From Loxodes magnus (taxonomy: Eukaryota > Ciliophora > Karyorelictea > Loxodida > Loxodidae), in assembly GCA_946699065.1 (NCBI GenBank), contig CAMPDV010000372.1, positions 1 to 64,000 of the forward strand: DNA of 64,000 nucleotides, written 5' to 3'. The first letter of the stretch is position 1, and the number at the start of each line of letters is the position of its first letter. The notes under the pieces are model-generated. The model did not search any database and was not told the DNA's origin. It worked only from the letters and a program-made list of their open reading frames with translations. Below, piece by piece: positions 16,240 through 53,829 of the stretch. The translations under genes were made by a program, and so were the position numbers.

Positions 16240-19200
16240 CAATAGAATACAGAACTAGTGTGACCACTCATGGTCTTACAGGTACCTGTCTTGACGTCTT
16301 ATAGTCTCACCGTATAATCACTTCCCGATACGATGAACTCTGAATCACTGGATATAGCAACAGATAATACATAATCTGTGTGACCACTCATGGTCTTACA
16401 GGTACCTGTCTTGACGTCCCATAGTCTCACCGTACAATCATAACTTCCCGATACGATGAACTCTGAATCACTGGATATAGCCACATAGAATACAGAACTA
16501 GTGTGACCACTCATGGTCTTACAGGTACCTGTCTTGACGTCCCATAGTCTCACCGTACAATCATAACTTCCCGATACGATGAACTCTGAATCACTGGATA
16601 TAGCCACAGCATATACATTACTAGTGTGACCACTCATGGTCTTACAGGTACCTGTCTTGACGTCCCATAGTCTCACCGTATAATCACTTCCCGATACGAT
16701 GAACTCTGAATCACTGGATATAGCCACAGCATATACATTACTAGTGTGACCACTCATGGTCTTACAGGTACCTGTCTTGACGTCCCATAGTCTCACCGTA
16801 TAATCACTTCCCGATACGATGAACTCTGAATCACTGGATATAGCCACATAGAATACAGAACTAGTGTGACCACTCATGTTCTTACAGGTTCCTGTCTTGA
16901 CGTCCCATAGTCTCACCGTATAATCACTTCCCGATACGATGAACTCTGAATCACTGGATATAGCCACAGATAATACATAACTAGTGTGACCACTCATGGT
17001 CTTACAGGTACCTGTCTTGACGTCCCATAGTCTCACCGTACAATCATAACTTCCCGATACGATGAACTCTGAATCACTGGATATAGCCACATAGAATACA
17101 GAACTAGTGTGACCACTCATGGTCTTACAGGTTCCTGTCTTGACGTCCCATAGTCTCACCGTACAATCATAACTTCCCGATACGATGAACTCTGAATCAC
17201 TGGATATAGCCACAGCATATACATTACTAGTGTGACCACTCATGGTCTTACAGGTACCTGTCTTGACGTCCCATAGTCTCACCGTACAATCATAACTTCC
17301 CGATACGATGAACTCTGAATCACTGGATATAGCCACAGAGAATACATGACTAGTGTGACCACTCATGGTCTTACAGGTACCTGTCTTGACGTCCCATAGT
17401 CTCACCGTATTATCTACACTTCCCGATACGATGAACTCTGAATCACTGGATATAGCAACAGATGATACATGACTAGTGTGACCACTCATGTTCTTACAGG
17501 TACCTGTCTTGACGTCCCATAGTCTCACCGTATAATCACTTCCCGATACGATGAACTCTGAATCACTGGATATAGCCACAGCATATACATAATGTGTGTG
17601 ACCACTCATGGTCTTACAGGTACCTGTCTTGACGTCCCATAGTCTCACCGTACAATCATAACTTCCCGATACGATGAACTCTGAATCACTGGATATAGCC
17701 ACAGATGATACATAACTAGTGTGACCACTCATGTTCTTACAGGTACCTGTCTTGACGTCCCATAGTCTCACCGTATAATCACTTCCCGATACGATGAACT
17801 CTGAATCACTGGATATAGCCACAGCATATACAGAATCTGTGTGACCACTCATGGTCTTACAGGTACCTGTCTTGACGTCCCATAGTCTCACCGTATAATC
17901 ACTTCCCGATACGATGAACTCTGAATCACTGGATATAGCCACATAGAATACAGAACTAGTGTGACCACTCATGGTCTTACAGGTACCTGTCTTGACGTCC
18001 CATAGTCTCACCGTATAATCACTTCCCGATACGATGAACTCTGAATCACTGGATATAGCCACAGCATATACAGAATCTGTGTGACCACTCATGGTCTTAC
18101 AGGTACCTGTCTTGACGTCCCATAGTCTCACCGTATTATCTGAACTTCCCGATACGATGAACTCTGAATCACTGGATATAGCCACAGATAATACATAACT
18201 AGTGTGACCACTCATGGTCTTACAGGTACCTGTCTTGACGTCCCATAGTCTCACCGTACAATCATAACTTCCCGATACGATGAACTCTGAATCACTGGAT
18301 ATAGCCACAGCATATACATTACTAGTGTGACCACTCATGGTCTTACAGGTACCTGTCTTGACGTCCCATAGTCTCACCGTACAATCATAACTTCCCGATA
18401 CGATGAACTCTGAATCACTGGATATAGCCACAGCATATACAGAATCTGTGTGACCACTCATGGTCTTACAGGTTCCTGTCTTGACGTCTTATAGTCTCAC
18501 CGTACAATCATAACTTCCCGATACGATGAACTCTGAATCACTGGATATAGCCACAGCATATACATTACTAGTGTGACCACTCATGGTCTTACAGGTACCT
18601 GTCTTGACGTCCCATAGTCTCACCGTATAATCACTTCCCGATACGATGAACTCTGAATCACTGGATATAGCCACATAGAATACAGAACTAGTGTGACCAC
18701 TCATGGTCTTACAGGTTCCTGTCTTGACGTCTTATAGTCTCACCGTACAATCATAACTTCCCGATACGATGAACTCTGAATCACTGGATATAGCCACAGA
18801 TGATACATAACTAGTGTGACCACTCATGTTCTTACAGGTTCCTGTCTTGACGTCCCATAGTCTCACCGTATAATCACTTCCCGATACGATGAACTCTGAA
18901 TCACTGGATATAGCCACAGATAATACATAACTAGTGTGACCACTCATGGTCTTACAGGTACCTGTCTTGACGTCCCATAGTCTCACCGTACAATCATAAC
19001 TTCCCGATACGATGAACTCTGAATCACTGGATATAGCCACATAGAATACAGAACTAGTGTGACCACTCATGGTCTTACAGGTTCCTGTCTTGACGTCCCA
19101 TAGTCTCACCGTACAATCATAACTTCCCGATACGATGAACTCTGAATCACTGGATATAGCCACAGCATATACATTACTAGTGTGACCACTCATGGTCTTA

Positions 19201-22200
19201 CAGGTACCTGTCTTGACGTCCCATAGTCTCACCGTACAATCATAACTTCCCGATACGATGAACTCTGAATCACTGGATATAGCCACAGAGAATACATGAC
19301 TAGTGTGACCACTCATGGTCTTACAGGTACCTGTCTTGACGTCCCATAGTCTCACCGTATTATCTACACTTCCCGATACGATGAACTCTGAATCACTGGA
19401 TATAGCAACAGATGATACATGACTAGTGTGACCACTCATGTTCTTACAGGTACCTGTCTTGACGTCCCATAGTCTCACCGTATAATCACTTCCCGATACG
19501 ATGAACTCTGAATCACTGGATATAGCCACAGCATATACATAATGTGTGTGACAACTCATGGTCTTACAGGTACCTGTCTTGACGTCCCATAGTCTCACCG
19601 TACAATCATAACTTCCCGATACGATGAACTCTGAATCACTGGATATAGCCACAGATGATACATAACTAGTGTGACCACTCATGTTCTTACAGGTACCTGT
19701 CTTGACGTCCCATAGTCTCACCGTATAATCACTTCCCGATACGATGAACTCTGAATCACTGGATATAGCAACAGATAATACATAATCTGTGTGACCACTC
19801 ATGGTCTTACAGGTACCTGTCTTGACGTCCCATAGTCTCACCGTACAATCATAACTTCCCGATATGATGAACTCTGAATCACTGGATATAGCCACAGATA
19901 ATACATAACTAGTGTGACCACTCATGGTCTTACAGGTACCTGTCTTGACGTCCCATAGTCTCACCGTACAATCATAACTTCCCGATATGATGAACTCTGA
20001 ATCACTGGATATAGCCACAGATAATACATAACTAGTGTGACCACTCATGGTCTTACAGGTACCTGTCTTGACGTCCCATAGTCTCACCGTACAATCATAA
20101 CTTCCCGATACGATGAACTCTGAATCACTGGATATAGCCACAGATGATACATGACTAGTGTGACCACTCATGTTCTTACAGGTACCTGTCTTGACGTCCC
20201 ATAGTCTCACCGTATAATCACTTCCCGATACGATGAACTCTGAATCACTGGATATAGCCACAGCATATACATAATGTGTGTGACAACTCATGGTCTTACA
20301 GGTACCTGTCTTGACGTCCCATAGTCTCACCGTATAATCATAACTTCCCGATACGATGAACTCTGAATCACTGGATATAGCCACAGATAATACATAACTA
20401 GTGTGACCACTCATGGTCTTACAGGTACCTGTCTTGACGTCCCATAGTCTCACCGTACAATCATAACTTCCCGATACGATGAACTCTGAATCACTGGATA
20501 TAGCCACAGCATATACATTACTAGTGTGACCACTCATGGTCTTACAGGTACCTGTCTTGACGTCCCATAGTCTCACCGTATAATCACTTCCCGATACGAT
20601 GAACTCTGAATCACTGGATATAGCCACAGCATATACAGAATCTGTGTGACCACTCATGGTCTTACAGGTACCTGTCTTGACGTCCCATAGTCTCACCGTA
20701 TTATCTGAACTTCCCGATACGATGAACTCTGAATCACTGGATATAGCCACAGATAATACATAACTAGTGTGACCACTCATGGTCTTACAGGTACCTGTCT
20801 TGACGTCCCATAGTCTCACCGTACAATCATAACTTCCCGATACGATGAACTCTGAATCACTGGATATAGCCACAGCATATACATTACTAGTGTGACCACT
20901 CATGGTCTTACAGGTACCTGTCTTGACGTCCCATAGTCTCACCGTACAATCATAACTTCCCGATACGATGAACTCTGAATCACTGGATATAGCCACAGCA
21001 TATACAGAATCTGTGTGACCACTCATGGTCTTACAGGTTCCTGTCTTGACGTCTTATAGTCTCACCGTACAATCATAACTTCCCGATACGATGAACTCTG
21101 AATCACTGGATATAGCCACAGCATATACATTACTAGTGTGACCACTCATGGTCTTACAGGTACCTGTCTTGACGTCCCATAGTCTCACCGTATAATCACT
21201 TCCCGATACGATGAACTCTGAATCACTGGATATAGCCACATAGAATACAGAACTAGTGTGACCACTCATGGTCTTACAGGTTCCTGTCTTGACGTCTTAT
21301 AGTCTCACCGTACAATCATAACTTCCCGATACGATGAACTCTGAATCACTGGATATAGCCACAGATGATACATAACTAGTGTGACCACTCATGTTCTTAC
21401 AGGTTCCTGTCTTGACGTCCCATAGTCTCACCGTATAATCACTTCCCGATACGATGAACTCTGAATCACTGGATATAGCCACAGATAATACATAACTAGT
21501 GTGACCACTCATGGTCTTACAGGTACCTGTCTTGACGTCCCATAGTCTCACCGTACAATCATAACTTCCCGATACGATGAACTCTGAATCACTGGATATA
21601 GCCACATAGAATACAGAACTAGTGTGACCACTCATGGTCTTACAGGTTCCTGTCTTGACGTCCCATAGTCTCACCGTACAATCATAACTTCCCGATACGA
21701 TGAACTCTGAATCACTGGATATAGCCACAGCATATACATTACTAGTGTGACCACTCATGGTCTTACAGGTACCTGTCTTGACGTCCCATAGTCTCACCGT
21801 ACAATCATAACTTCCCGATACGATGAACTCTGAATCACTGGATATAGCCACAGAGAATACATGACTAGTGTGACCACTCATGGTCTTACAGGTACCTGTC
21901 TTGACGTCCCATAGTCTCACCGTATTATCTACACTTCCCGATACGATGAACTCTGAATCACTGGATATAGCAACAGATGATACATGACTAGTGTGACCAC
22001 TCATGTTCTTACAGGTACCTGTCTTGACGTCCCATAGTCTCACCGTATAATCACTTCCCGATACGATGAACTCTGAATCACTGGATATAGCCACAGCATA
22101 TACATAATGTGTGTGACAACTCATGGTCTTACAGGTACCTGTCTTGACGTCCCATAGTCTCACCGTACAATCATAACTTCCCGATACGATGAACTCTGAA

Positions 22201-25200
22201 TCACTGGATATAGCCACAGATGATACATAACTAGTGTGACCACTCATGTTCTTACAGGTACCTGTCTTGACGTCCCATAGTCTCACCGTATAATCACTTC
22301 CCGATACGATGAACTCTGAATCACTGGATATAGCAACAGATAATACATAATCTGTGTGACCACTCATGGTCTTACAGGTACCTGTCTTGACGTCCCATAG
22401 TCTCACCGTACAATCATAACTTCCCGATATGATGAACTCTGAATCACTGGATATAGCCACAGATAATACATAACTAGTGTGACCACTCATGGTCTTACAG
22501 GTACCTGTCTTGACGTCCCATAGTCTCACCGTACAATCATAACTTCCCGATATGATGAACTCTGAATCACTGGATATAGCCACAGATAATACATAACTAG
22601 TGTGACCACTCATGGTCTTACAGGTACCTGTCTTGACGTCCCATAGTCTCACCGTACAATCATAACTTCCCGATACGATGAACTCTGAATCACTGGATAT
22701 AGCCACAGATGATACATGACTAGTGTGACCACTCATGTTCTTACAGGTACCTGTCTTGACGTCCCATAGTCTCACCGTATAATCACTTCCCGATACGATG
22801 AACTCTGAATCACTGGATATAGCCACAGCATATACATAATGTGTGTGACAACTCATGGTCTTACAGGTACCTGTCTTGACGTCCCATAGTCTCACCGTAT
22901 AATCATAACTTCCCGATACGATGAACTCTGAATCACTGGATATAGCCACAGATAATACATAACTAGTGTGACCACTCATGGTCTTACAGGTACCTGTCTT
23001 GACGTCCCATAGTCTCACCGTACAATCATAACTTCCCGATACGATGAACTCTGAATCACTGGATATAGCCACAGCATATACATTACTAGTGTGACCACTC
23101 ATGGTCTTACAGGTACCTGTCTTGACGTCCCATAGTCTCACCGTATAATCACTTCCCGATACGATGAACTCTGAATCACTGGATATAGCCACAGATAATA
23201 CATAACTAGTGTGACCACTCATGGTCTTACAGGTACCTGTCTTGACGTCCCATAGTCTCACCGTACAATCATAACTTCCCGATACGATGAACTCTGAATC
23301 ACTGGATATAGCCACATAGAATACAGAACTAGTGTGACCACTCATGGTCTTACAGGTTCCTGTCTTGACGTCCCATAGTCTCACCGTACAATCATAACTT
23401 CCCGATACGATGAACTCTGAATCACTGGATATAGCCACAGCATATACATTACTAGTGTGACCACTCATGGTCTTACAGGTACCTGTCTTGACGTCCCATA
23501 GTCTCACCGTACAATCATAACTTCCCGATACGATGAACTCTGAATCACTGGATATAGCCACAGAGAATACATGACTAGTGTGACCACTCATGGTCTTACA
23601 GGTACCTGTCTTGACGTCCCATAGTCTCACCGTATTATCTACACTTCCCGATACGATGAACTCTGAATCACTGGATATAGCAACAGATGATACATGACTA
23701 GTGTGACCACTCATGTTCTTACAGGTACCTGTCTTGACGTCCCATAGTCTCACCGTATAATCACTTCCCGATACGATGAACTCTGAATCACTGGATATAG
23801 CCACAGCATATACATAATGTGTGTGACAACTCATGGTCTTACAGGTACCTGTCTTGACGTCCCATAGTCTCACCGTACAATCATAACTTCCCGATACGAT
23901 GAACTCTGAATCACTGGATATAGCCACAGATGATACATAACTAGTGTGACCACTCATGTTCTTACAGGTACCTGTCTTGACGTCCCATAGTCTCACCGTA
24001 TAATCACTTCCCGATACGATGAACTCTGAATCACTGGATATAGCAACAGATAATACATAATCTGTGTGACCACTCATGGTCTTACAGGTACCTGTCTTGA
24101 CGTCCCATAGTCTCACCGTACAATCATAACTTCCCGATATGATGAACTCTGAATCACTGGATATAGCCACAGATAATACATAACTAGTGTGACCACTCAT
24201 GGTCTTACAGGTACCTGTCTTGACGTCCCATAGTCTCACCGTACAATCATAACTTCCCGATACGATGAACTCTGAATCACTGGATATAGCCACAGATAAT
24301 ACATAACTAGTGTGACCACTCATGGTCTTACAGGTACCTGTCTTGACGTCCCATAGTCTCACCGTACAATCATAACTTCCCGATACGATGAACTCTGAAT
24401 CACTGGATATAGCCACATAGAATACAGAACTAGTGTGACCACTCATGGTCTTACAGGTTCCTGTCTTGACGTCCCATAGTCTCACCGTATAATCACTTCC
24501 CGATACGATGAACTCTGAATCACTGGATATAGCCACAGATAATACATAACTAGTGTGACCACTCATGGTCTTACAGGTTCCTGTCTTGACGTCCCATAGT
24601 CTCACCGTACAATCATAACTTCCCGATACGATGAACTCTGAATCACTGGATATAGCCACAGCATATACATTACTAGTGTGACCACTCATGGTCTTACAGG
24701 TACCTGTCTTGACGTCCCATAGTCTCACCGTACAATCATAACTTCCCGATACGATGAACTCTGAATCACTGGATATAGCCACAGAGAATACATGACTAGT
24801 GTGACCACTCATGGTCTTACAGGTACCTGTCTTGACGTCCCATAGTCTCACCGTATTATCTACACTTCCCGATACGATGAACTCTGAATCACTGGATATA
24901 GCAACAGATGATACATGACTAGTGTGACCACTCATGTTCTTACAGGTACCTGTCTTGACGTCCCATAGTCTCACCGTATAATCACTTCCCGATACGATGA
25001 ACTCTGAATCACTGGATATAGCCACAGCATATACATAATGTGTGTGACAACTCATGGTCTTACAGGTACCTGTCTTGACGTCCCATAGTCTCACCGTACA
25101 ATCATAACATCCCGATACGATGAACTCTGAATCACTGGATATAGCCACAGATGATACATAACTAGTGTGACCACTCATGTTCTTACAGGTACCTGTCTTG

Positions 25201-28200
25201 ACGTCCCATAGTCTCACCGTATAATCACTTCCCGATACGATGAACTCTGAATCACTGGATATAGCCACAGCATATACAGAATCTGTGTGACCACTCATGG
25301 TCTTACAGGTACCTGTCTTGACGTCCCATAGTCTCACCGTATAATCACTTCCCGATACGATGAACTCTGAATCACTGGATATAGCCACATAGAATACAGA
25401 ACTAGTGTGACCACTCATGGTCTTACAGGTACCTGTCTTGACGTCCCATAGTCTCACCGTCTAATCATAACTTCCCGATACGATGAACTCTGAATCACTG
25501 GATATAGCCACAGCATATACAGAATCTGTGTGACCACTCATGGTCTTACAGGTACCTGTCTTGACGTCCCATAGTCTCACCGTATAATAACTTCCCGATA
25601 CGATGAACTCTGAATCACTGGATATAGCCACAGCATATACAGAATCTGTGTGACCACTCATGGTCTTACAGGTACCTGTCTTGACGTCTTATAGTCTCAC
25701 CGTACAATCATAACTTCCCGATACGATGAACTCTGAATCACTGGATATAGCCACAGATGATACATAACTAGTGTGACCACTCATGGTCTTACAGGTACCT
25801 GTCTTGACGTCCCATAGTCTCACCGTATTATCTACACTTCCCGATACGATGAACTCTGAATCACTGGATATAGCCACAGCATATACATTACTAGTGTGAC
25901 CACTCATGGTCTTACAGGTACCTGTCTTGACGTCCCATAGTCTCACCGTACAATCATAACTTCCCGATACGATGAACTCTGAATCACTGGATATAGCCAC
26001 AGCATATACATTACTAGTGTGACCACTCATGGTCTTACAGGTACCTGTCTTGACGTCCCATAGTCTCACCGTATTATCTACACTTCCCGATACGATGAAC
26101 TCTGAATCACTGGATATAGCCACATAGAATACAGAACTAGTGTGACCACTCATGTTCTTACAGGTTCCTGTCTTGACGTCCCATAGTCTCACCGTACAAT
26201 CATAACTTCCCGATACGATGAACTCTGAATCACTGGATATAGCCACAGAGAATACATGACTAGTGTGACCACTCATGGTCTTACAGGTACCTGTCTTGAC
26301 GTCCCATAGTCTCACCGTATTATCTACACTTCCCGATACGATGAACTCTGAATCACTGGATATAGCAACAGATGATACATAACTAGTGTGACCACTCATG
26401 TTCTTACAGGTACCTGTCTTGACGTCCCATAGTCTCACCGTATAATCACTTCCCGATACGATGAACTCTGAATCACTGGATATAGCCACAGCATATACAT
26501 AATGTGTGTGACCACTCATGGTCTTACAGGTACCTGTCTTGACGTCCCATAGTCTCACCGTACAATCATAACTTCCCGATACGATGAACTCTGAATCACT
26601 GGATATAGCCACAGATGATACATAACTAGTGTGACCACTCATGTTCTTACAGGTTCCTGTCTTGACGTCCCATAGTCTCACCGTATAATCACTTCCCGAT
26701 ACGATGAACTCTGAATCACTGGATATAGCCACAGCATATACATAATGTGTGTGACAACTCATGGTCTTACAGGTACCTGTCTTGACGTCCCATAGTCTCA
26801 CCGTACAATCATAACTTCCCGATACGATGAACTCTGAATCACTGGATATAGCCACAGATGATACATAACTAGTGTGACCACTCATGTTCTTACAGGTACC
26901 TGTCTTGACGTCCCATAGTCTCACCGTATAATCACTTCCCGATACGATGAACTCTGAATCACTGGATATAGCAACAGATAATACATAATCTGTGTGACCA
27001 CTCATGGTCTTACAGGTACCTGTCTTGACGTCCCATAGTCTCACCGTACAATCATAACTTCCCGATATGATGAACTCTGAATCACTGGATATAGCCACAG
27101 ATAATACATAACTAGTGTGACCACTCATGGTCTTACAGGTACCTGTCTTGACGTCCCATAGTCTCACCGTACAATCATAACTTCCCGATACGATGAACTC
27201 TGAATCACTGGATATAGCCACAGATAATACATAACTAGTGTGACCACTCATGGTCTTACAGGTACCTGTCTTGACGTCCCATAGTCTCACCGTACAATCA
27301 TAACTTCCCGATACGATGAACTCTGAATCACTGGATATAGCCACAGCATATACAGAATCTGTGTGACCACTCATGGTCTTACAGGTTCCTGTCTTGACGT
27401 CTTATAGTCTCACCGTACAATCATAACTTCCCGATACGATGAACTCTGAATCACTGGATATAGCCACAGCATATACATTACTAGTGTGACCACTCATGGT
27501 CTTACAGGTACCTGTCTTGACGTCCCATAGTCTCACCGTATAATCACTTCCCGATACGATGAACTCTGAATCACTGGATATAGCCACATAGAATACAGAA
27601 CTAGTGTGACCACTCATGGTCTTACAGGTTCCTGTCTTGACGTCTTATAGTCTCACCGTACAATCATAACTTCCCGATACGATGAACTCTGAATCACTGG
27701 ATATAGCCACATAGAATACAGAACTAGTGTGACCACTCATGTTCTTACAGGTTCCTGTCTTGACGTCCCATAGTCTCACCGTATAATCACTTCCCGATAC
27801 GATGAACTCTGAATCACTGGATATAGCCACAGATAATACATAACTAGTGTGACCACTCATGGTCTTACAGGTACCTGTCTTGACGTCCCATAGTCTCACC
27901 GTACAATCATAACTTCCCGATACGATGAACTCTGAATCACTGGATATAGCCACATAGAATACAGAACTAGTGTGACCACTCATGGTCTTACAGGTTCCTG
28001 TCTTGACGTCCCATAGTCTCACCGTACAATCATAACTTCCCGATACGATGAACTCTGAATCACTGGATATAGCCACAGCATATACATTACTAGTGTGACC
28101 ACTCATGGTCTTACAGGTACCTGTCTTGACGTCCCATAGTCTCACCGTACAATCATAACTTCCCGATACGATGAACTCTGAATCACTGGATATAGCCACA

Positions 28201-31200
28201 GAGAATACAGAACTAGTGTGACCACTCATGGTCTTACAGGTTCCTGTCTTGACGTCCCATAGTCTCACCGTACAATCATAACTTCCCGATACGATGAACT
28301 CTGAATCACTGGATATAGCCACAGAGAATACATGACTAGTGTGACCACTCATGGTCTTACAGGTACCTGTCTTGACGTCCCATAGTCTCACCGTATTATC
28401 TACACTTCCCGATACGATGAACTCTGAATCACTGGATATAGCAACAGATGATACATAACTAGTGTGACCACTCATGTTCTTACAGGTACCTGTCTTGACG
28501 TCCCATAGTCTCACCGTATAATCACTTCCCGATACGATGAACTCTGAATCACTGGATATAGCCACAGCATATACAGAATCTGTGTGACCACTCATGTTCT
28601 TACAGGTACCTGTCTTGACGTCCCATAGTCTCACCGTATAATCACTTCCCGATACGATGAACTCTGAATCACTGGATATAGCCACAGCATATACATAATG
28701 TGTGTGACAACTCATGGTCTTACAGGTACCTGTCTTGACGTCCCATAGTCTCACCGTACAATCATAACTTCCCGATACGATGAACTCTGAATCACTGGAT
28801 ATAGCCACAGATGATACATAACTAGTGTGACCACTCATGTTCTTACAGGTTCCTGTCTTGACGTCCCATAGTCTCACCGTATAATCACTTCCCGATACGA
28901 TGAACTCTGAATCACTGGATATAGCCACAGCATATACATAATGTGTGTGACAACTCATGGTCTTACAGGTACCTGTCTTGACGTCCCATAGTCTCACCGT
29001 ACAATCATAACTTCCCGATACGATGAACTCTGAATCACTGGATATAGCCACAGATGATACATAACTAGTGTGACCACTCATGTTCTTACAGGTACCTGTC
29101 TTGACGTCCCATAGTCTCACCGTATAATCACTTCCCGATACGATGAACTCTGAATCACTGGATATAGCAACAGATAATACATAATCTGTGTGACCACTCA
29201 TGGTCTTACAGGTACCTGTCTTGACGTCCCATAGTCTCACCGTACAATCATAACTTCCCGATATGATGAACTCTGAATCACTGGATATAGCCACAGATAA
29301 TACATAACTAGTGTGACCACTCATGGTCTTACAGGTACCTGTCTTGACGTCCCATAGTCTCACCGTACAATCATAACTTCCCGATACGATGAACTCTGAA
29401 TCACTGGATATAGCCACAGATAATACATAACTAGTGTGACCACTCATGGTCTTACAGGTACCTGTCTTGACGTCCCATAGTCTCACCGTACAATCATAAC
29501 TTCCCGATACGATGAACTCTGAATCACTGGATATAGCCACAGCATATACAGAATCTGTGTGACCACTCATGGTCTTACAGGTTCCTGTCTTGACGTCTTA
29601 TAGTCTCACCGTACAATCATAACTTCCCGATACGATGAACTCTGAATCACTGGATATAGCCACAGCATATACATTACTAGTGTGACCACTCATGGTCTTA
29701 CAGGTACCTGTCTTGACGTCCCATAGTCTCACCGTATAATCACTTCCCGATACGATGAACTCTGAATCACTGGATATAGCCACATAGAATACAGAACTAG
29801 TGTGACCACTCATGGTCTTACAGGTTCCTGTCTTGACGTCTTATAGTCTCACCGTACAATCATAACTTCCCGATACGATGAACTCTGAATCACTGGATAT
29901 AGCCACATAGAATACAGAACTAGTGTGACCACTCATGTTCTTACAGGTTCCTGTCTTGACGTCCCATAGTCTCACCGTATAATCACTTCCCGATACGATG
30001 AACTCTGAATCACTGGATATAGCCACAGATAATACATAACTAGTGTGACCACTCATGGTCTTACAGGTACCTGTCTTGACGTCCCATAGTCTCACCGTAC
30101 AATCATAACTTCCCGATACGATGAACTCTGAATCACTGGATATAGCCACATAGAATACAGAACTAGTGTGACCACTCATGGTCTTACAGGTTCCTGTCTT
30201 GACGTCCCATAGTCTCACCGTACAATCATAACTTCCCGATACGATGAACTCTGAATCACTGGATATAGCCACAGCATATACATTACTAGTGTGACCACTC
30301 ATGGTCTTACAGGTACCTGTCTTGACGTCCCATAGTCTCACCGTACAATCATAACTTCCCGATACGATGAACTCTGAATCACTGGATATAGCCACAGAGA
30401 ATACATGACTAGTGTGACCACTCATGGTCTTACAGGTACCTGTCTTGACGTCCCATAGTCTCACCGTATTATCTACACTTCCCGATACGATGAACTCTGA
30501 ATCACTGGATATAGCAACAGATGATACATGACTAGTGTGACCACTCATGTTCTTACAGGTACCTGTCTTGACGTCCCATAGTCTCACCGTATAATCACTT
30601 CCCGATACGATGAACTCTGAATCACTGGATATAGCCACAGCATATACATAATGTGTGTGACAACTCATGGTCTTACAGGTACCTGTCTTGACGTCCCATA
30701 GTCTCACCGTACAATCATAACTTCCCGATACGATGAACTCTGAATCACTGGATATAGCCACAGATAATACATAACTAGTGTGACCACTCATGGTCTTACA
30801 GGTACCTGTCTTGACGTCCCATAGTCTCACCGTACAATCATAACTTCCCGATACGATGAACTCTGAATCACTGGATATAGCCACAGCATATACAGAATCT
30901 GTGTGACCACTCATGGTCTTACAGGTTCCTGTCTTGACGTCTTATAGTCTCACCGTACAATCATAACTTCCCGATACGATGAACTCTGAATCACTGGATA
31001 TAGCCACAGCATATACATTACTAGTGTGACCACTCATGGTCTTACAGGTACCTGTCTTGACGTCCCATAGTCTCACCGTACAATCATAACTTCCCGATAC
31101 GATGAACTCTGAATCACTGGATATAGCCACAGCATATACAGAATCTGTGTGACCACTCATGGTCTTACAGGTTCCTGTCTTGACGTCTTATAGTCTCACC

Positions 31201-34200
31201 GTACAATCATAACTTCCCGATACGATGAACTCTGAATCACTGGATATAGCCACATAGAATACAGAACTAGTGTGACCACTCATGTTCTTACAGGTTCCTG
31301 TCTTGACGTCCCATAGTCTCACCGTATAATCACTTCCCGATACGATGAACTCTGAATCACTGGATATAGCCACAGATAATACATAACTAGTGTGACCACT
31401 CATGGTCTTACAGGTACCTGTCTTGACGTCCCATAGTCTCACCGTACAATCATAACTTCCCGATACGATGAACTCTGAATCACTGGATATAGCCACATAG
31501 AATACAGAACTAGTGTGACCACTCATGGTCTTACAGGTTCCTGTCTTGACGTCCCATAGTCTCACCGTACAATCATAACTTCCCGATACGATGAACTCTG
31601 AATCACTGGATATAGCCACAGCATATACATTACTAGTGTGACCACTCATGGTCTTACAGGTACCTGTCTTGACGTCCCATAGTCTCACCGTACAATCATA
31701 ACTTCCCGATACGATGAACTCTGAATCACTGGATATAGCCACAGAGAATACATTACTAGTGTGACCACTCATGGTCTTACAGGTACCTGTCTTGACGTCC
31801 CATAGTCTCACCGTACAATCATAACTTCCCGATACGATGAACTCTGAATCACTGGATATAGCAACAGATGATACATGACTAGTGTGACCACTCATGTTCT
31901 TACAGGTACCTGTCTTGACGTCCCATAGTCTCACCGTATAATCACTTCCCGATACGATGAACTCTGAATCACTGGATATAGCCACAGCATATACATAATG
32001 TGTGTGACAACTCATGGTCTTACAGGTACCTGTCTTGACGTCCCATAGTCTCACCGTACAATCATAACTTCCCGATACGATGAACTCTGAATCACTGGAT
32101 ATAGCCACAGATGATACATAACTAGTGTGACCACTCATGTTCTTACAGGTACCTGTCTTGACGTCCCATAGTCTCACCGTATAATCACTTCCCGATACGA
32201 TGAACTCTGAATCACTGGATATAGCCACAGCATATACAGAATCTGTGTGACCACTCATGGTCTTACAGGTACCTGTCTTGACGTCCCATAGTCTCACCGT
32301 ATTATCACTTCCCGATACGATGAACTCTGAATCACTGGATATAGCCACATAGAATACAGAACTAGTGTGACCACTCATGGTCTTACAGGTACCTGTCTTG
32401 ACGTCCCATAGTCTCACCGTCTAATCATAACTTCCCGATACGATGAACTCTGAATCACTGGATATAGCCACAGCATATACAGAATCTGTGTGACCACTCA
32501 TGGTCTTACAGGTACCTGTCTTGACGTCTTATAGTCTCACCGTACAATCATAACTTCCCGATACGATGAACTCTGAATCACTGGATATAGCCACAGATGA
32601 TACATGACTAGTGTGACCACTCATGGTCTTACAGGTACCTGTCTTGACGTCCCATAGTCTCACCGTATTATCTACACTTCCCGATACGATGAACTCTGAA
32701 TCACTGGATATAGCCACAGCATATACATTACTAGTGTGACCACTCATGGTCTTACAGGTACCTGTCTTGACGTCCCATAGTCTCACCGTACAATCATAAC
32801 TTCCCGATACGATGAACTCTGAATCACTGGATATAGCCACAGCATATACATTACTAGTGTGACCACTCATGGTCTTACAGGTACCTGTCTTGACGTCCCA
32901 TAGTCTCACCGTACAATCATAACTTCCCGATACGATGAACTCTGAATCACTGGATATAGCCACAGCATATACATTACTAGTGTGACCACTCATGGTCTTA
33001 CAGGTACCTGTCTTGACGTCCCATAGTCTCACCGTACAATCATAACTTCCCGATACGATGAACTCTGAATCACTGGATATAGCCACAGCATATACAGAAT
33101 CTGTGTGACCACTCATGGTCTTACAGGTTCCTGTCTTGACGTCTTATAGTCTCACCGTACAATCATAACTTCCCGATACGATGAACTCTGAATCACTGGA
33201 TATAGCCACAGATGATACATAACTAGTGTGACCACTCATGGTCTTACAGGTACCTGTCTTGACGTCCCATAGTCTCACCGTATTATCTACACTTCCCGAT
33301 ACGATGAACTCTGAATCACTGGATATAGCCACAGCATATACATTACTAGTGTGACCACTCATGGTCTTACAGGTACCTGTCTTGACGTCCCATAGTCTCA
33401 CCGTACAATCATAACTTCCCGATACGATGAACTCTGAATCACTGGATATAGCCACAGCATATACATTACTAGTGTGACCACTCATGGTCTTACAGGTACC
33501 TGTCTTGACGTCCCATAGTCTCACCGTACAATCATAACTTCCCGATACGATGAACTCTGAATCACTGGATATAGCCACATAGAATACAGAACTAGTGTGA
33601 CCACTCATGTTCTTACAGGTTCCTGTCTTGACGTCCCATAGTCTCACCGTACAATCATAACTTCCCGATACGATGAACTCTGAATCACTGGATATAGCCA
33701 CATAGAATACAGAACTAGTGTGACCACTCATGGTCTTACAGGTACCTGTCTTGACGTCCCATAGTCTCACCGTACAATCATAACTTCCCGATACGATGAA
33801 CTCTGAATCACTGGATATAGCCACATAGAATACATAACTAGTGTGACCACTCATGGTCTTACATGTTCCTGTCTTGACGTCTTATAGTCTCACCGTACAA
33901 TCATAACTTCCCGATACGATGAACTCTGAATCACTGGATATAGCCACAGAGAATACATGACTAGTGTGACCACTCATGGTCTTACAGGTACCTGTCTTGA
34001 CGTCCCATAGTCTCACCGTATAATCACTTCCCGATACGATGAACTCTGAATCACTGGATATAGCAACAGATGATACATAACTAGTGTGACCACTCATGGT
34101 CTTACAGGTACCTGTCTTGACGTCCCATAGTCTCACCGTATTATCTACACTTCCCGATACGATGAACTCTGAATCACTGGATATAGCAACAGATGATACA

Positions 34201-37200
34201 TGACTAGTGTGACCACTCATGTTCTTACAGGTACCTGTCTTGACGTCCCATAGTCTCACCGTATAATCACTTCCCGATACGATGAACTCTGAATCACTGG
34301 ATATAGCCACAGCATATACAGAATCTGTGTGACCACTCATGGTCTTACAGGTACCTGTCTTGACGTCCCATAGTCTCACCGTACAATCATAACTTCCCGA
34401 TACGATGAACTCTGAATCACTGGATATAGCCACAGATGATACATTACTAGTGTGACCACTCATGGTCTTACAGGTACCTGTCTTGACGTCCCATAGTCTC
34501 ACCGTACAATCATAACTTCCCGATACGATGAACTCTGAATCACTGGATATAGCCACATAGAATACAGAACTAGTGTGACCACTCATGGTCTTACAGGTAC
34601 CTGTCTTGACGTCCCATAGTCTCACCGTACAATCATAACTTCCCGATACGATGAACTCTGAATCACTGGATATAGCCACAGCATATACATTACTAGTGTG
34701 ACCACTCATGGTCTTACAGGTACCTGTCTTGACGTTCCATAGTCTCACCGTCTTATCTCTACTTCCCGATACGATGAACTCTGAATCACTGGATATAGCC
34801 ACAGATGATACATAACTAGTGTGACCACTCATGGTCTTACAGGTACCTGTCTTGACGTCCCATAGTCTCACCGTATTATCTACACTTCCCGATACGATGA
34901 ACTCTGAATCACTGGATATAGCCACAGCATATACATTACTAGTGTGACCACTCATGGTCTTACAGGTACCTGTCTTGACGTCTTATAGTCTCACCGTACA
35001 ATCATAACTTCCCGATACGATGAACTCTGAATCACTGGATATAGCCACAGCATATACATAATGTGTGTGACCACTCATGGTCTTACAGGTACCTGTCTTG
35101 ACGTCCCATAGTCTCACCGTACAATCATAACTTCCCGATACGATGAACTCTGAATCACTGGATATAGCCACAGCATATACATTACTAGTGTGACCACTCA
35201 TGGTCTTACAGGTACCTGTCTTGACGTCCCATAGTCTCACCGTATAATCACTTCCCGATACGATGAACTCGTAATCACTGGATATAGCCACATAGAATAC
35301 AGAACTAGTGTGACCACTCATGGTCTTACAGGTTCCTGTCTTGACGTCCCATAGTCTCACCGTACAATCATAACTTCCCGATACGATGAACTCTGAATCA
35401 CTGGATATAGCCACAGAGAATACATGACTAGTGTGACCACTCATGGTCTTACAGGTACCTGTCTTGACGTCCCATAGTCTCACCGTATTATCTACACTTC
35501 CCGATACGATGAACTCTGAATCACTGGATATAGCAACAGATGATACATAACTAGTGTGACCACTCATGTTCTTACAGGTACCTGTCTTGACGTCCCATAG
35601 TCTCACCGTATAATCACTTCCCGATACGATGAACTCTGAATCACTGGATATAGCCACAGCATATACAGAATCTGTGTGACCACTCATGGTCTTACAGGTA
35701 CCTGTCTTGACGTCCCATAGTCTCACCGTACAATCATAACTTCCCGATACGATGAACACTGAATCACTGGATATAGCCACAGATGATACATAACTAGTGT
35801 GACCACTCATGTTCTTACAGGTACCTGTCTTAACGTCCCATAGTCTCACCGTATAATCACTTCCCGATACGATGAACTCTGAATCACTGGATATAGCCAC
35901 AGATGATACATAACTAGTGTGACCACTCATGTTCTTACAGGTACCTGTCTTAACGTCCCATAGTCTCACCGTATAATCACTTCCCGATACGATGAACTCT
36001 GAATCACTGGATATAGCCACAGCATATACAGAATCTGTGTGACCACTCATGGTCTTACAGGTACCTGTCTTGACGTCCCATAGTCTCACCGTATAATAAC
36101 TTCCCGATACGATGAACTCTGAATCACTGGATATAGCCACAGATGATACATAACTAGTGTGACCACTCATGTTCTTACAGGTACCTGTCTTAACGTCCCA
36201 TAGTCTCACCGTATAATCACTTCCCGATACGATGAACTCTGAATCACTGGATATAGCCACAGCATATACAGAATCTGTGTGACCACTCATGGTCTTACAG
36301 GTACCTGTCTTGACGTCTTATAGTCTCACCGTACAATCATAACTTCCCGATACGATGAACTCTGAATCACTGGATATAGCCACAGATGATACATAACTAG
36401 TGTGACCACTCATGGTCTTACAGGTACCTGTCTTGACGTCCCATAGTCTCACCGTATTATCTACACTTCCCGATACGATGAACTCTGAATCACTGGATAT
36501 AGCCACAGCATATACATTACTAGTGTGACCACTCATGGTCTTACAGGTACCTGTCTTGACGTCCCATAGTCTCACCGTACAATCATAACTTCCCGATACG
36601 ATGAACTCTGAATCACTGGATATAGCCACAGCATATACATTACTAGTGTGACCACTCATGGTCTTACAGGTACCTGTCTTGACGTCCCATAGTCTCACCG
36701 TACAATCATAACTTCCCGATACGATGAACTCTGAATCACTGGATATAGCCACAGCATATACATTACTAGTGTGACCACTCATGGTCTTACAGGTACCTGT
36801 CTTGACGTCCCATAGTCTCACCGTATTATCACTTCCCGATACGATGAACTCTGAATCACTGGATATAGCCACAGATAATACATAACTAGTGTGACCACTC
36901 ATGGTCTTACAGGTACCTGTCTTGACGTCCCATAGTCTCACCGTATAATAACTTCCCGATACGATGAACTCTAAATCACTGGATATAGCCACAGAGAATA
37001 CATGACTAGTGTGACCACTCATGGTCTTACAGGTACCTGTCTTGACGTCCCATAGTCTCACCGTACAATCATAACTTCCCGATACGATGAACTCTGAATC
37101 ACTGGATATAGCCACAGATAATACATAACTAGTGTGACCACTCATGTTCTTACAGGTACCTGTCTTGACGTCCCATAGTCTCACCGTATAATCACTTCCC

Positions 37201-40200
37201 GATACGATGAACTCTGAATCACTGGATATAGCCACAGAGAATACATGACTAGTGTGACCACTCATGGTCTTACAGGTACCTGTCTTGACGTCCCATAGTC
37301 TCACCGTATAATCACTTCCCGATACGATGAACTCTGAATCACTGGATATAGCCACATAGAATACAGAACTAGTGTGACCACTCATGGTCTTACAGGTACC
37401 TGTCTTGACGTCCCATAGTCTCACCGTCTAATCATAACTTCCCGATACGATGAACTCTGAATCACTGGATATAGCCACAGCATATACATAACTAGTGTGA
37501 CCACTCATGGTTTTACAGGTACCTGTCTTGACGTCCCATAGTCTCACCGTACAATCACTTCCCGATACGATGAACTCTGAATCACTGGATATAGCCACAG
37601 AGAATACATGACTAGTGTGACCACTCATGTTCTTACAGGTACCTGTCTTGACGTCCCATAGTCTCACCGTCTCATCTCTACTTCCCGATACGATGAACTC
37701 TGAATCACTGGATATAGCAACAGATGATACATAACTAGTGTGACCACTCATGGTCTTACAGGTACCTGTCTTGACGTCCCATAGTCTCACCGTATTATCT
37801 ACACTTCCCGATACGATGAACTCTGAATCACTGGATATAGCAACAGATGATACATAACTAGTGTGACCACTCATGTTCTTACAGGTACCTGTCTTGACGT
37901 CCCATAGTCTCACCGTCTCATCTCTACTTCCCGATACGATGAACTCTGAATCACTGGATATAGCAACAGATGATACATAACTAGTGTGACCACTCATGTT
38001 CTTACAGGTACCTGTCTTGACGTCCCATAGTCTCACCGTATAATCACTTCCCGATACGATGAACTCTGAATCACTGGATATAGCCACAGCATATACAGAA
38101 TCTGTGTGACCACTCATGTTCTTACAGGTACCTGTCTTGACGTCCCATAGTCTCACCGTATAATCACTTCCCGATACGATGAACTCTGAATCACTGGATA
38201 TAGCCACAGCATATACAGAATCTGTGTGACCACTCATGGTCTTACAGGTACCTGTCTTGACGTCCCATAGTCTCACCGTATTATCTACACTTCCCGATAC
38301 GATGAACTCTGAATCACTGGATATAGCCACAGCATATACATTACTAGTGTGACCACTCATGGTCTTACAGGTACCTGTCTTGACGTCCCATAGTCTCACC
38401 GTATTATCTACACTTCCCGATACGATGAACTCTGAATCACTGGATATAGCCACAGCATATACATTACTAGTGTGACCACTCATGGTCTTACAGGTACCTG
38501 TCTTGACGTCCCATAGTCTCACCGTACAATCATAACTTCCCGATACGATGAACTCTGAATCACTGGATATAGCCACAGCATATACATTACTAGTGTGACC
38601 ACTCATGGTCTTACAGGTACCTGTCTTGACGTCCCATAGTCTCACCGTATTATCACTTCCCGATACGATGAACTCTGAATCACTGGATATAGCCACATAG
38701 AATACAGAACTAGTGTGACCACTCATGGTCTTACAGGTTCCTGTCTTGACGTCCCATAGTCTCACCGTACAATCATAACTTCCCGATACGATGAACTCTG
38801 AATCACTGGATATAGCCACAGAGAATACATGACTAGTGTGACCACTCATGGTCTTACAGGTACCTGTCTTGACGTCCCATAGTCTCACCGTATTATCTAC
38901 ACTTCCCGATACGATGAACTCTGAATCACTGGATATAGCCACAGCATATACATAATGTGTGTGACCACTCATGGTCTTACAGGTACCTGTCTTGACGTCC
39001 CATAGTCTCACCGTACAATCATAACTTCCCGATACGATGAACTCTGAATCACTGGATATAGCCACAGCATATACATTACTAGTGTGACCACTCATGGTCT
39101 TACAGGTACCTGTCTTGACGTCCCATAGTCTCACCGTACAATCATAACTTCCCGATACGATGAACTCTGAATCACTGGATATAGCCACAGATGATACATA
39201 ACTAGTGTGACCACTCATGTTCTTACAGGTACCTGTCTTGACGTCCCATAGTCTCACCGTATAATCACTTCCCGATACGATGAACTCTGAATCACTGGAT
39301 ATAGCCACAGCATATACAGAATCTGTGTGACCACTCATGGTCTTACAGGTACCTGTCTTGACGTCCCATAGTCTCACCGTATAATCACTTCCCGATACGA
39401 TGAACTCTAAATCACTGGATATAGCCACAGAGAATACATGACTAGTGTGACCACTCATGGTCTTACAGGTACCTGTCTTGACGTCCCATAGTCTCACCGT
39501 ATTATCTACACTTCCCGATACGATGAACTCTGAATCACTGGATATAGCAACAGATGATACATAACTAGTGTGACCACTCATGTTCTTACAGGTACCTGTC
39601 TTGACGTCCCATAGTCTCACCGTCTCATCTCTACTTCCCGATACGATGAACTCTAAATCACTGGATATAGCCACAGAGAATACATTACTAGTGTGACCAC
39701 TCATGGTCTTACAGGTACCTGTCTTGACGTCCCATAGTCTCACCGTATTATCTACACTTCCCGATACGATGAACTCTGAATCACTGGATATAGCCACAGA
39801 TGATACATAACTAGTGTGACCACTCATGTTCTTACAGGTACCTGTCTTGACGTCCCATAGTCTCACCGTCTCATCTCTACTTCCCGATACGATGAACTCT
39901 AAATCACTGGATATAGCCACAGATAATACAGAACTAGTGTGACCACTCATGGTCTTACAGGTACCTGTCTTGACGTCCCATAGTCTCACCGTATTATCTA
40001 CACTTCCCGATACGATGAACTCTGAATCACTGGATATAGCCACAGATGATACATAACTAGTGTGACCACTCATGTTCTTACAGGTACCTGTCTTGACGTC
40101 CCATAGTCTCACCGTATAATCACTTCCCGATACGATGAACTCTGAATCACTGGATATAGCCACAGCATATACAGAATCTGTGTGACCACTCATGGTCTTA

Positions 40201-43200
40201 CAGGTACCTGTCTTGACGTCCCATAGTCTCACCGTATAATCACTTCCCGATACGATGAACTCTGAATCACTGGATATAGCCACATAGAATACAGAACTAG
40301 TGTGACCACTCATGGTCTTACAGGTTCCTGTCTTGACGTCCCATAGTCTCACCGTATTATCTACACTTCCCGATACGATGAACTCTGAATCACTGGATAT
40401 AGCAACAGATGATACATAACTAGTGTGACCACTCATGTTCTTACAGGTACCTGTCTTGACGTCCCATAGTCTCACCGTCTCATCTCTACTTCCCGATACG
40501 ATGAACTCTAAATCACTGGATATAGCCACAGAGAATACATGACTAGTGTGACCACTCATGGTCTTACAGGTACCTGTCTTGACGTCCCATAGTCTCACCG
40601 TACAATCATAACTTCCCGATACGATGAACTCTGAATCACTGGATATAGCCACAGATAATACAGAACTAGTGTGACCACTCATGGTCTTACAGGTACCTGT
40701 CTTGACGTCCCATAGTCTCACCGTATAATCACTTCCCGATACGATGAACTCTGAATCACTGGATATAGCCACATAGAATACAGAACTAGTGTGACCACTC
40801 ATGGTCTTACAGGTACCTGTCTTGACGTCCCATAGTCTCACCGTATAATAACTTCCCGATACGATGAACTCTAAATCACTGGATATAGCCACAGAGAATA
40901 CATGACTAGTGTGACCACTCATGGTCTTACAGGTACCTGTCTTGACGTCCCATAGTCTCACCGTATTATCTACACTTCCCGATACGATGAACTCTGAATC
41001 ACTGGATATAGCCACAGATGATACATAACTAGTGTGACCACTCATGGTCTTACAGGTACCTGTCTTGACGTCCCATAGTCTCACCGTACAATCATAACTT
41101 CCCGATACGATGAACTCTGAATCACTGGATATAGCCACAGCATATACATTACTAGTGTGACCACTCATGGTCTTACAGGTACCTGTCTTGACGTCCCATA
41201 GTCTCACCGTATAATCACTTCCCGATACGATGAACTCTGAATCACTGGATATAGCCACAGATGATACATAACTTGTGTGACCACTCATGGTCTTACAGGT
41301 ACCTGTCTTGACGTCCCATAGTCTCACCGTATTATCTACACTTCCCGATACGATGAACTCTGAATCACTGGATATAGCCACAGATGATACATAACTAGTG
41401 TGACCACTCATGGTCTTACAGGTACCTGTCTTGACGTCCCATAGTCTCACCGTATAATAACTTCCCGATACGATGAACTCTGAATCACTGGATATAGCCA
41501 CAGCATATACATTACTAGTGTGACCACTCATGGTCTTACAGGTACCTGTCTTGACGTCCCATAGTCTCACCGTATTATCTACACTTCCCGATACGATGAA
41601 CTCTGAATCACTGGATATAGCAACAGATGATACATAACTAGTGTGACCACTCATGTTCTTACAGGTACCTGTCTTGACGTCCCATAGTCTCACCGTATAA
41701 TCACTTCCCGATACGATGAACTCTGAATCACTGGATATAGCCACATAGAATACAGAACTAGTGTGACCACTCATGGTCTTACAGGTACCTGTCTTGACGT
41801 CCCATAGTCTCACCGTCTAAACATAACTTCCCGATACGATGAACTCTGAATCACTGGATATAGCCACAGCATATACATTACTAGTGTGACCACTCATGGT
41901 CTTACAGGTACCTGTCTTGACGTCCCATAGTCTCACCGTACAATCATAACTTCCCGATACGATGAACTCTGAATCACTGGATATAGCAACAGATGATACA
42001 TAACTAGTGTGACCACTCATGTTCTTACAGGTACCTGTCTTGACGTCCCATAGTCTCACCGTCTAAACATAACTTCCCGATACGATGAACTCTGAATCAC
42101 TGGATATAGCCACATAGAATACAGAACTAGTGTGACCACTCATGGTCTTACAGGTTCCTGTCTTGACGTCCCATAGTCTCACCGTATTATCTACACTTCC
42201 CGATACGATGAACTCTGAATCACTGGATATAGCCACAGCATATACAGAACTAGTGTGACCACTCATGGTCTTACAGGTACCTGTCTTGACGTCCCATAGT
42301 CTCACCGTCTAAACATAACTTCCCGATACGATGAACTCTGAATCACTGGATATAGCCAAAGCATATACATAATGTGTGTGACCACTCATGGTCTTACAGG
42401 TACCTGTCTTGACGTCCCATAGTCTTACCGTACAATCATAACTTCCCGATACGATGAACTCTGAATCACTGGATATAGCCACAGCATATACATTACTAGT
42501 GTGACCACTCATGGTCTTACAGGTACCTGTCTTGACGTCCCATAATCTCACCGTACAATCATAACTTCCCGATACGATGAACTCTGAATCACTGGATATA
42601 GCCAAAGCATATACATAATGTGTGTGACCACTCATGGTCTTACAGGTACCTGTCTTGACGTCCCATAGTCTTACCGTACAATCATAACTTCCCGATACGA
42701 TGAACTCTGAATCACTGGATATAGCCACAGCATATACATTACTAGTGTAACCACTCATGGTCTTACAGGTACCTGTCTTGACGTCTTATAGTCTCACCGT
42801 ATAATCATAACTTCCCGATACGATGAACTCTGAATCACTGGATATAGCCACATAGAATACAGAATCTGTGTGACCACTCATGGTCTTACAGGTACCTGTC
42901 TTGACGTCCCATAGTCTCACCGTATTATCTACACTTCCCGATACGATGAACTCTGAATCACTGGATATAGCCACAGCATATACAGAACTAGTGTGACCAC
43001 TCATGGTCTTACAGGTACCTGTCTTGACGTCCCATAGTCTCACCGTCTAAACATAACTTCCCGATACGATGAACTCTGAATCACTGGATATAGCCACAGC
43101 ATATACATTACTAGTGTGACCACTCATGGTCTTACAGGTACCTGTCTTGACGTCCCATAGTCTCACCGTACAATCATAACTTCCCGATACGATGAACTCT

Positions 43201-43978
43201 GAATCACTGGATATAGCCACAGCATATACATTACTAGTGTGACCACTCATGGTCTTACAGGTACCTGTCTTGACGTCCCATAGTCTCACCGTACAATCAT
43301 AACTTCCCGATACGATGAACTCTGAATCACTGGATATAGCCACATAGAATACAGAACTAGTGTGACCACTCATGGTCTTACAGGTTCCTGTCTTGACGTC
43401 CCATAGTCTCACCGTACAATCATAACTTCCCGATACGATGAACTCTGAATCACTGGATATAGCCACAGCATATACATTACTAGTGTGACCACTCATGGTC
43501 TTACAGGTACCTGTCTTGACGTCTTATAGTCTCACCGTACAATCATAACTTCCCGATACGATGAACTCTGAATCACTGGATATAGCCACAGATGATACAT
43601 AACTAGTGTGACCACTCATGGTCTTACAGGTACCTGTCTTGACGTCCCATAGTCTCACCGTATAATAACTTCCCGATACGATGAACTCTGAATCACTGGA
43701 TATAGCCACAGCATATACATTACTAGTGTGACCACTCATGGTCTTACAGGTACCTGTCTTGACGTCCCATAGTCTCACCGTATTATCTACACTTCCCGAT
43801 ACGATGAACTCTGAATCACTGGATATAGCAACAGAGAATACATAATGTCTGTGACCACTCATGGTCTTACAGGTACCTGTCTTGACGTTCCATAGTCTCA
43901 CCGTCTAATCTCTACTTCCCGATACGATGAACTCTGAATCACTGGATATATCAACAGCATATACATAACTAGTGTGAC
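16240..43978 (-). CDS. Giant WD40-repeat protein, main uninterrupted frame block
   Basis: This is the longest stretch of the array in one reading frame: about 27.7 kb, 9,246 codons, roughly 227 WD40 units. In the standard code it would be cut many times by TAA, found where the WD tryptophan should be (RL-TAA-DVKTG), and by TAG (for example at 25,461, 32,421, 37,431, 41,818, 42,062, 42,309 and 43,047, in GSYD-TAG-TV or GSYV-TAG-TV). Both codons read as Gln in this genome, which gives one frame. No in-frame TGA was noticed. Predicted role: a very large scaffold or binding protein made of many beta-propellers; partners are unknown. No signal peptide, membrane segment or other domain appears in the block. 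The start is undefined, because the block begins at a frame change near 43,978. It could be part of one larger gene, or a once-coding satellite. WD40 family is certain, expression is not. Confidence 0.6.
18430..24210 (-). repeat. Higher-order repeat, shift 2,565 nt with a third partial copy at 1,710 nt
   Basis: Units at about 18,430-20,610 recur at about 20,995-23,175 (shift 2,565). Part of the second copy, about 21,500-22,490, recurs at about 23,210-24,200 (shift 1,710). A private marker, GATATGATG for GATACGATG (Val to Ile in FIISG), sits at 19,861, 22,426 and 24,136 and confirms the register. The same marker returns at 27,064 and 29,260 in further rearranged copies. Confidence 0.8.
27370..30000 (-). 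repeat. Block duplication in the array, shift 2,196 nt
   Basis: The pair of short frames bounded by TAA-containing linkers at 27,402 and 27,645 recurs at 29,598 and 29,841, an offset of 2,196 nt. Flanking units and the GATATGATG marker (27,064/29,260) keep the same offset. Confidence 0.75.
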
Positions 43979-49669: not shown

Positions 49670-50190
49670 AATCATTTTATAATTTTCTGATATTATAATC
49701 TTAATTTTGTTTACTTTTTATATATAAAAAAAAGGTCTCGAATTTTTTCAAAACTTCGGATATTTTTTATTTTCAATATTTTTTAGTAAATGTAGAATGA
49801 ATCATGAATTGTTTTAATTCTTTATTAGCTGTAATAGCATAATATCCATTAACTTTACTTCGTTCTACAATAGAAAAGACTAAACAAAAAACTTTTTGTT
49901 TCTTTCGATTGAGAGATTATACAATTTTCAACAGTATTCGATGCTTTTGCAAGTAACACTTATATACGCTAGCTATTTGTTCATCACTTTATCTTCTCGA
50001 GTACTGGTTATTGACTATTTCAACTCTAAATATAATAATACTTTTATTAAAAATAAAAACAAGTTGTTTGAAATACTTAAAGATACTGGATATACACTTT
50101 TATTAACTATATCTCATTAATCTTCTCATCTCTATCATCTCAACTAACCTCTTTATTTACTTGTTAAATTATTGAAGAGTCATGGGTAGC
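49670..50190 (-). other. Possible N-terminal exon upstream of the WD40 array (weak)
   Basis: Read on the minus strand with the reassigned code, about 50,140 down to 49,670 gives a Lys/Gln-rich but varied sequence with segments such as VFCLVFSIVERSKVNGYYA and KYWKQKISEVLKKFETFFLY. It could form an N-terminal domain. It enters the array in a frame different from the adjacent WD40 block, but in the same frame (coordinate modulo three) as the large 16,240-43,978 block. A TATATATAAAAAG-like stretch sits near 49,716-49,730. I recognise no family. The plus strand of the same stretch also gives a plausible 74-codon frame at 49,896-50,120 starting with TTG, so this may simply be A+T-rich sequence. Weak. 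Confidence 0.22.
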
Positions 50191-51850: not shown

Positions 51851-51876
51851 ATAAGTAAATAAATAAATTTGATTAT

Positions 51877-51910
51877 AGAGCGCGTAGCACTCTCGTTGGT
51901 GCGCAGCTCT
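51877..51910 (+). repeat. Left terminal hairpin of the TIR element
   Basis: 34 nt with outer stem AGAGC/GCTCT and inner stem GCAC(T)/(G)GTGC, an internal loop of GCGTA against GCA, and a T-G closing wobble. It is the same fold as the right end, where the wobble pair is C-G. Confidence 0.65.
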
Positions 51911-51926
51911 TTAAAAAAAATGTTTC

Positions 51927-53827: not shown

Positions 53828-53829
53828 AG

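Follow-up and report, generated by a model that had tools for sequence, protein, structure and literature searches.

The window analysed here comprises positions 1-64000 of contig C372 (CAMPDV010000372.1) in the 705.7 Mb, 7,843-contig assembly of the karyorelict ciliate Loxodes magnus, and most of its minus strand is occupied by a tandem array of near-identical WD40-coding units. With a probability of roughly 0.8, this array is one of many blocks of a family of satellite DNA in which a single whole WD40 blade of 41 codons serves as the monomer. The family would have come from the middle blades of a set of genes, or be kept similar to them; these genes encode seven WD40 blades behind a pentapeptide-like segment, preceded in one case by a protein kinase domain. 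The stretch is most likely part of a half-million-copy repetitive family, and not a giant protein gene.

The array spanned positions 1 to 49,667 and was detected by Tandem Repeats Finder as 123/120-bp units with a score of 83,001, so its repetition cannot be attributed to chance; as the window starts at base 1 of C372, the contig start truncates it. All 406 unit anchors lay on the minus strand, and the 405 measured intervals were mostly of 123 bp (266) or 120 bp (117), each unit encoding a single blade, 41 or 40 residues long, of the Pfam WD40 type. The array frame at 46801-49662 matched PF00400 with an E-value of 5.3e-243. An earlier note on this DNA had described about 227 such units within positions 16240-43978; the minus-strand array of near-identical WD40 units was confirmed, but over the longer extent given above. 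Higher-order repetition was limited to weak lags of 21 units in the window, 49 on C269 and 23 on C296, at which 10-13% of units were identical.

The 27.7-kb single frame reported in the same note does exist, since the longest open reading frame (ORF) of the array under genetic code table 6 runs from 16188 to 44015 on the minus strand (9,275 amino acids), but it is only the segment bounded by two frame-breaking units, one of 119 bp (16191-16310) and one of 122 bp (43901-44023). In total, 22 of the 405 units broke the frame, namely 13 of 119 bp, 8 of 122 bp and one 245-bp double unit at 46720-46965. A single propagated 1-bp deletion was common to 20 of these 22, including the unit at 16191-16310; the unit at 43901-44023 had an independent 1-bp deletion, and the double unit was an independent frame break. 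The long open frame is accounted for by the recent amplification of a unit whose period is divisible by three and which has one frame free of TGA.

Across the assembly, a 26-mer anchor (≤2 mismatches) found 491,597 unit copies and a 27-mer anchor from another part of the unit (≤3 mismatches) found 494,393, with 0 matches genome-wide for the reversed-pattern controls of both anchors, while an identical 51-mer was present 309,131 times. At about 123 bp per unit, the satellite thus totals about 0.49 million copies and about 60 Mb, or about 8.5% of the assembly. Long head-to-tail arrays were found on C4, C6, C269, C296 and C372, and in-register unit matches also occurred on C21, C29 and C74. On C269 (412 kb), array sequence filled all 17 stretches fetched, seven contiguous ones of 10 kb and ten of 1 kb, as far as the last base, and C296 was array at all points sampled between 57.0 and 215.1 kb. 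The unit also occurs in small pieces, since one to three satellite units with neither head nor tail were noticed embedded in other sequence at C2:248158-248307 (L051) and C3:1484384-1484434 (L054).

For comparison, 231 Mbp of tandem repeats have been reported in a 706 Mbp macronuclear (MAC) assembly of Loxodes magnus (PMC11441545), of which the present satellite would make up about a quarter. The main text of that article leaves the nature of these repeats unstated and contains no mention of WD40, satellite, beta-propeller or WD repeat; here, a WD40-blade satellite was found. The same article blames misassembled low-complexity repeats for the size gap between its two assemblies, and the arrays described here may have been inflated or collapsed by the assembler. 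That inflation or rearrangement created them from a far rarer unit is nevertheless hardly credible: two parts of the unit yielded the same count, variant sets differed among contigs, the arrays on C372 and C296 adjoined other sequence, and the 231 Mbp of tandem repeats were reported in a published assembly of the same size.

The array ends did not resemble gene starts. On C372, the 5' boundary on the N-terminal side (49662-49674, minus strand) was placed by sequence reading where homology begins mid-blade with the motif NTVRLWD, two codons after an in-frame TGA (49672-49674), and the ORF lying upstream of the array terminated at 49672. The C6 array started mid-unit directly after a different minisatellite, the C4 array started after headless sequence, and the 5' end of the C296 array was placed within 55.1-57.0 kb. 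A head motif derived from the gene L053 (see below) was recovered in both of two control genes, one of them being the source of the motif. It was absent from all four upstream stretches searched, covering 14,333 bases on C372 (49668-64000), 1,250 on C4, 1,060 on C6 and 1,290 on C2, the last of these beside the three-unit fragment L051. Among the head matches listed from a genome-wide search, no place lay on C269, C296, C372 or C4. With no upstream head and with frame breaks in 22/405 units, the window array therefore lacks the organization of a WD40 gene with a start, a stop and a closed number of blades; only the separate gene family described below has a nearly constant blade number.

Variation among units was studied in a sample of 1,436 units from C372, C269, C296 and C4, in which the 1,223 units of exactly 123 bp were counted and the 213 of other lengths were excluded. 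Outside the eight most variable codons, the pooled units contained 54 nonsynonymous and 19 synonymous core variant types, a nonsynonymous fraction of 0.74 compared to 0.73-0.76 expected. Genome-wide, 392,840 exact matches rose to 407,022 when five synonymous sites were freed and to 412,393 when five nonsynonymous sites were freed, so that in five fourfold codons 19,553 variants were nonsynonymous (second position) and 14,182 synonymous (third position). According to the earlier note, differences that ignore codon position would indicate a noncoding satellite. In the conserved codons, the differences came close to being codon-blind in the pooled and genome-wide counts, and the window array alone was mildly contrary.

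The tryptophan (Trp) codon of the WD motif was examined separately. It was replaced by TAA in 73/405 window units, so the note's claim that WD is conserved in nearly every copy was overstated. Its further claim that TAA and TAG occur only at sites tolerating glutamine (Gln) did not hold, as 58 of the 66 in-frame TAA/TAG codons in the 383 frame-keeping window units replaced this signature Trp (codon 4) and the remaining 8 fell at codon 40. In the Loxodes magnus code (table 27), TAA and TAG encode Gln and TGA is either Trp or stop (PMC11441545), and a TGA in the gene L055 aligned with the Trp of the L053 WD motif, consistent with this code. As TGA can be read as Trp, a long open frame says little about coding. 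In-frame TGA was moreover frequent in sister arrays, with 318/633 units on C269 (50%), 197/342 on C296 (58%) and 2/44 on C4; frame openness is a trait of the window array and not of the repeat family. Judged from the sequences, the pooled, genome-wide and Trp-codon counts do not demonstrate that a protein is under purifying selection.

The codons with the highest residue entropy in the 1,223 pooled units were 38, 22, 20 and 40, followed by 23, 19, 17 and 18, and D39 was kept in 1,208 of these units. According to PMC3419727, the top-face hotspots R1-2, R1 and D-1 of WD40 proteins are the 16th, 18th and 34th residues in G-beta, and their spacing equals that of codons 20, 22 and 38, the conserved D39 being in agreement. 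These hotspots represent a structural rule and not a repeat family, and they were mapped here by spacing and the conserved aspartate, not by structure. Among common minor alleles (≥30 units), 31/36 fell in the eight variable codons compared to 7.0 expected, a figure that is, with its p value, descriptive and not a test, as these very units had served to choose the eight codons. Alleles seen once were spread evenly, with 4/29 in these codons compared to 5.7 expected. The old variation would accordingly be read as a mark of selection on the binding surface, and the new variation would not.

A similar focus is described for the hnwd genes of the fungus Podospora anserina (het-d, het-e and het-r), NACHT-WD40 genes of non-self recognition, where positive selection acts on codon pairs 7/9 and 25/27 (PMC2873952) and whole units are gained and lost in genes of about ten units (PMC12222747). 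The likeness lies in near-identical WD40 units under concerted evolution and in the spacing 2, 16, 2 of the selected codons, which is that of the pooled codons 20, 22, 38 and 40. Variation was focused at these four top-face codons, with homogenisation elsewhere, in the pooled units and on C296, which had the same top four. The order differed in other single contigs, unlike the hnwd pattern, codon 23 ranking above 38 on C372, codon 40 ranking seventh on C269, and codons 19 and 25 leading on C4 (44 units). In addition, hnwd repeats lie inside genes of about ten units, whereas the bulk of the present units lies in headless arrays of hundreds to thousands, and a pentapeptide segment is present in the three genes examined here, one of which also encodes a kinase.

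Several observations weigh against an untranslated satellite, and some of them would favour the alternative that the array, or at least the window array, encodes thousands of WD40 residues. Besides the 27.7-kb frame open under table 6, in-frame TGA was found in 0/383 frame-keeping window units, and the frame was kept in 1,402 of 1,435 units of near-normal length on the four contigs. The window array alone had a synonymous excess (12 nonsynonymous to 11 synonymous; p = 0.033, uncorrected and drawn from five groups and several frequency classes tested). For the tryptophan codon of the WD motif, the genome-wide count was 1,555 for TGA, which is synonymous under table 27, and 1,178 for the nonsynonymous TAG, a slight lean to keeping Trp, although the listed places cluster in few contigs. 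A degenerate WD40-like stretch in a different frame farther upstream of the C4 array means that this array may adjoin a decayed gene, and the variation sample covered only four contigs, with 44 units of 123 bp on C4. The seven window units at 48,802-49,662 (minus strand, 287 residues) were modelled with confidence as a seven-blade propeller (AlphaFold2 from one sequence; predicted local distance difference test 92.5, predicted template modelling score 0.90), with 5yzv_B and 7bif_A (designed propeller) as the best PDB matches (template modelling score 0.90-0.92). Together with the PF00400 match, this model shows that a unit could still encode a good blade; translation is not implied by the fold. 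Finally, 51 of 90 rare units were one base away from a common unit with the change in the variable codons, a count that alone could mean ongoing change there. The allele-level count (4/29) points to old alleles in new combinations. A-directed hypermutation in the style of diversity-generating retroelements was rejected, as the common variants were not restricted to A and the alleles seen once were not enriched (4/29).

Against a translated giant protein argue the frame breaks in 22/405 units, the loss of Trp in 73/405 and the codon-blind pooled and genome-wide variation. No head was found upstream of 49,667, and 38/42 paired genes of the related family keep seven blades among the matches listed. 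In-frame TGA also occupies 50% and 58% of units on two sister arrays, though it is readable as Trp in table 27. A giant gene is therefore very improbable and was rejected on the grounds of the frame breaks, the Trp loss, the absent heads and the pooled variation pattern. Of the two options left by the earlier note, recent amplification of a selected unit is better supported than selection on a giant protein.

The search for short unit clusters also led to three ordinary-looking genes (L049, L053 and L055), each composed of a pentapeptide-like segment, seven WD40 blades and a similar tail. The pentapeptide-like segment is so called for its recognised sequence pattern, and the pentapeptide family was not among the best 25 Pfam families listed. 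L053 encoded a protein kinase domain upstream (Pfam PK_Tyr_Ser-Thr, E-value 7.7e-30). The upstream regions of the three genes differed, those of L049 and L055 appearing coiled-coil-like by eye. Pfam scans of parts of the L053 and L055 products listed WD40 families and, for L053 only, kinase families, and NACHT was not among the best 25 listed for each product, out of 41 and 43, respectively; genome-wide, 31 NACHT-domain matches were found at E ≤ 0.001 (e.g. L021-L028).

A genome search with the head, i.e. the pentapeptide segment and first blade, gave at least 150 places (71,610 first-look candidates), and one with the tail also gave at least 150 (790 candidates), 150/150 of the places scored being matches in both cases. 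Of these 150 head places, at least 16 were judged by eye to duplicate another one in score, frame length and stops (e.g. C11, C4119 and C4499) and may represent allelic or duplicated contigs. Among the matches listed, 42 heads could be paired with tails, at a distance of exactly 963 bp in 32/42 and of 958-967 bp in 38/42, the four remaining pairs deviating by -3, -2, +1 and +8 blade lengths. The distance is 960 bp in L053, where one of the seven blades lacks a codon, so that 963 bp is the length of seven blades. The family member at C1802:76833-78935, with a head-tail distance eight blade lengths above the standard, is a possible intermediate between gene and array.

Among the matches listed for contigs C1-C260, all 16 heads lying within 50 kb of the low contig end (on C6, C8, C11, C12, C31, C32, C49, C81, C97, C121, C126, C128, C141, C228, C243 and C256) pointed toward that end, which may reflect a subtelomeric arrangement. 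The idea that the contig ends beside these heads consist of the WD40 satellite was rejected for the 15 contig starts read, which were AT-rich and in 13/15 cases tandemly repetitive with lags of 77-107 bases.

The middle blades of the three genes were 87-98% identical at the DNA level to satellite units. In L049, blades 2-4 were 97.6-98.4% identical to a sampled unit with zero synonymous differences, and blades 1, 5 and 6 were only 55-69% identical. In L053 and L055, blades 2-4 reached 87-95% with synonymous differences present, and blade 1 of L053 reached 91.1%. Blades 2 and 4 of L055 carried the motif LRLYNI and blade 3 the motif VRLWDV, giving the gene a mosaic look.

This resemblance raises the alternative that the arrays serve as an archive, storing variant blades that undergo gene conversion with the seven-blade sensor genes and so feed recognition diversity. 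The near-identity of the L049 middle blades to satellite units, which extends to synonymous sites and spares the edge blades, speaks for such exchange, as do the mosaic-looking blades of L055, the peak of common pooled variants at the recognition codons 20, 22, 38 and 40, and the frequent new combinations of old alleles in rare units. The direction of exchange is, however, ambiguous, the comparison covers three gene loci, the match of L053 and L055 is weaker, plain derivation of the satellite from genes predicts the same pattern, and the arrays are well above the size that an archive would appear to need. An archive function is thus considered unlikely, if less so than a giant gene. The best reading is that of a coding-derived, neutrally evolving satellite that shares blades with a diversifying sensor family.

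Under this reading of a coding-derived satellite, diversifying selection acting on the genes would have generated the variation at the binding surface, either ahead of amplification or while the unit was being amplified by unequal exchange or rolling-circle-type copying. The resulting arrays would persist without translation, as the sequence data suggest, and the surface variation would now mainly be reshuffled within them.

Gene-derived macrosatellites are known in human, where D4Z4/DUX4 and RS447/USP17 are tandem arrays containing or derived from coding sequence. The present satellite differs from these in that its monomer is a single structural repeat of 41 residues from a protein domain and not a whole gene, and it makes up about 8.5% of the assembly. 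Literature searches for Loxodes or karyorelicts with WD40, and for satellite DNA with a WD40-repeat monomer and an ORF, returned no such report; one for ciliate WD40 proteins with pentapeptide repeats and a protein kinase turned up only a cyanobacterial paper, and one for Loxodes satellites gave nothing on a WD40-blade satellite, judged by title. The data suggest that a karyorelict ciliate has a large family of receptor-like WD40 genes, one that is unmatched in the literature searched. A satellite with an intact and, as modelled, fold-competent protein-repeat monomer brings together two usually separate subjects, how satellites turn over and how recognition proteins evolve in concert, and offers a natural test case for sequence exchange between satellites and genes. 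If blades were indeed archived in the arrays, satellite DNA would act as a diversity store for intracellular recognition in a single-celled eukaryote. More generally, where TGA may be a sense codon, long open frames in tandem arrays are no evidence of giant proteins.

Concerning the remainder of the window, nothing was found by an Rfam scan of positions 49,000-64,000 or by a tRNA scan of the whole window. A short tandem repeat of 19/38 bp was detected at 51916-52036 (Tandem Repeats Finder). The frame at 52062-53141 on the plus strand, open under table 6, contained a CCHC zinc knuckle (CWFCRKPGHFVRQC) and appeared gag-like by eye, with no Pfam match at E ≤ 0.001. Another plus-strand frame, at 62775-63998, was cysteine-rich with furin-like repeats (Pfam Furin-like_2, E-value 0.00048, below the cut-off of that family) and contained many TAA and TAG codons read as Gln.

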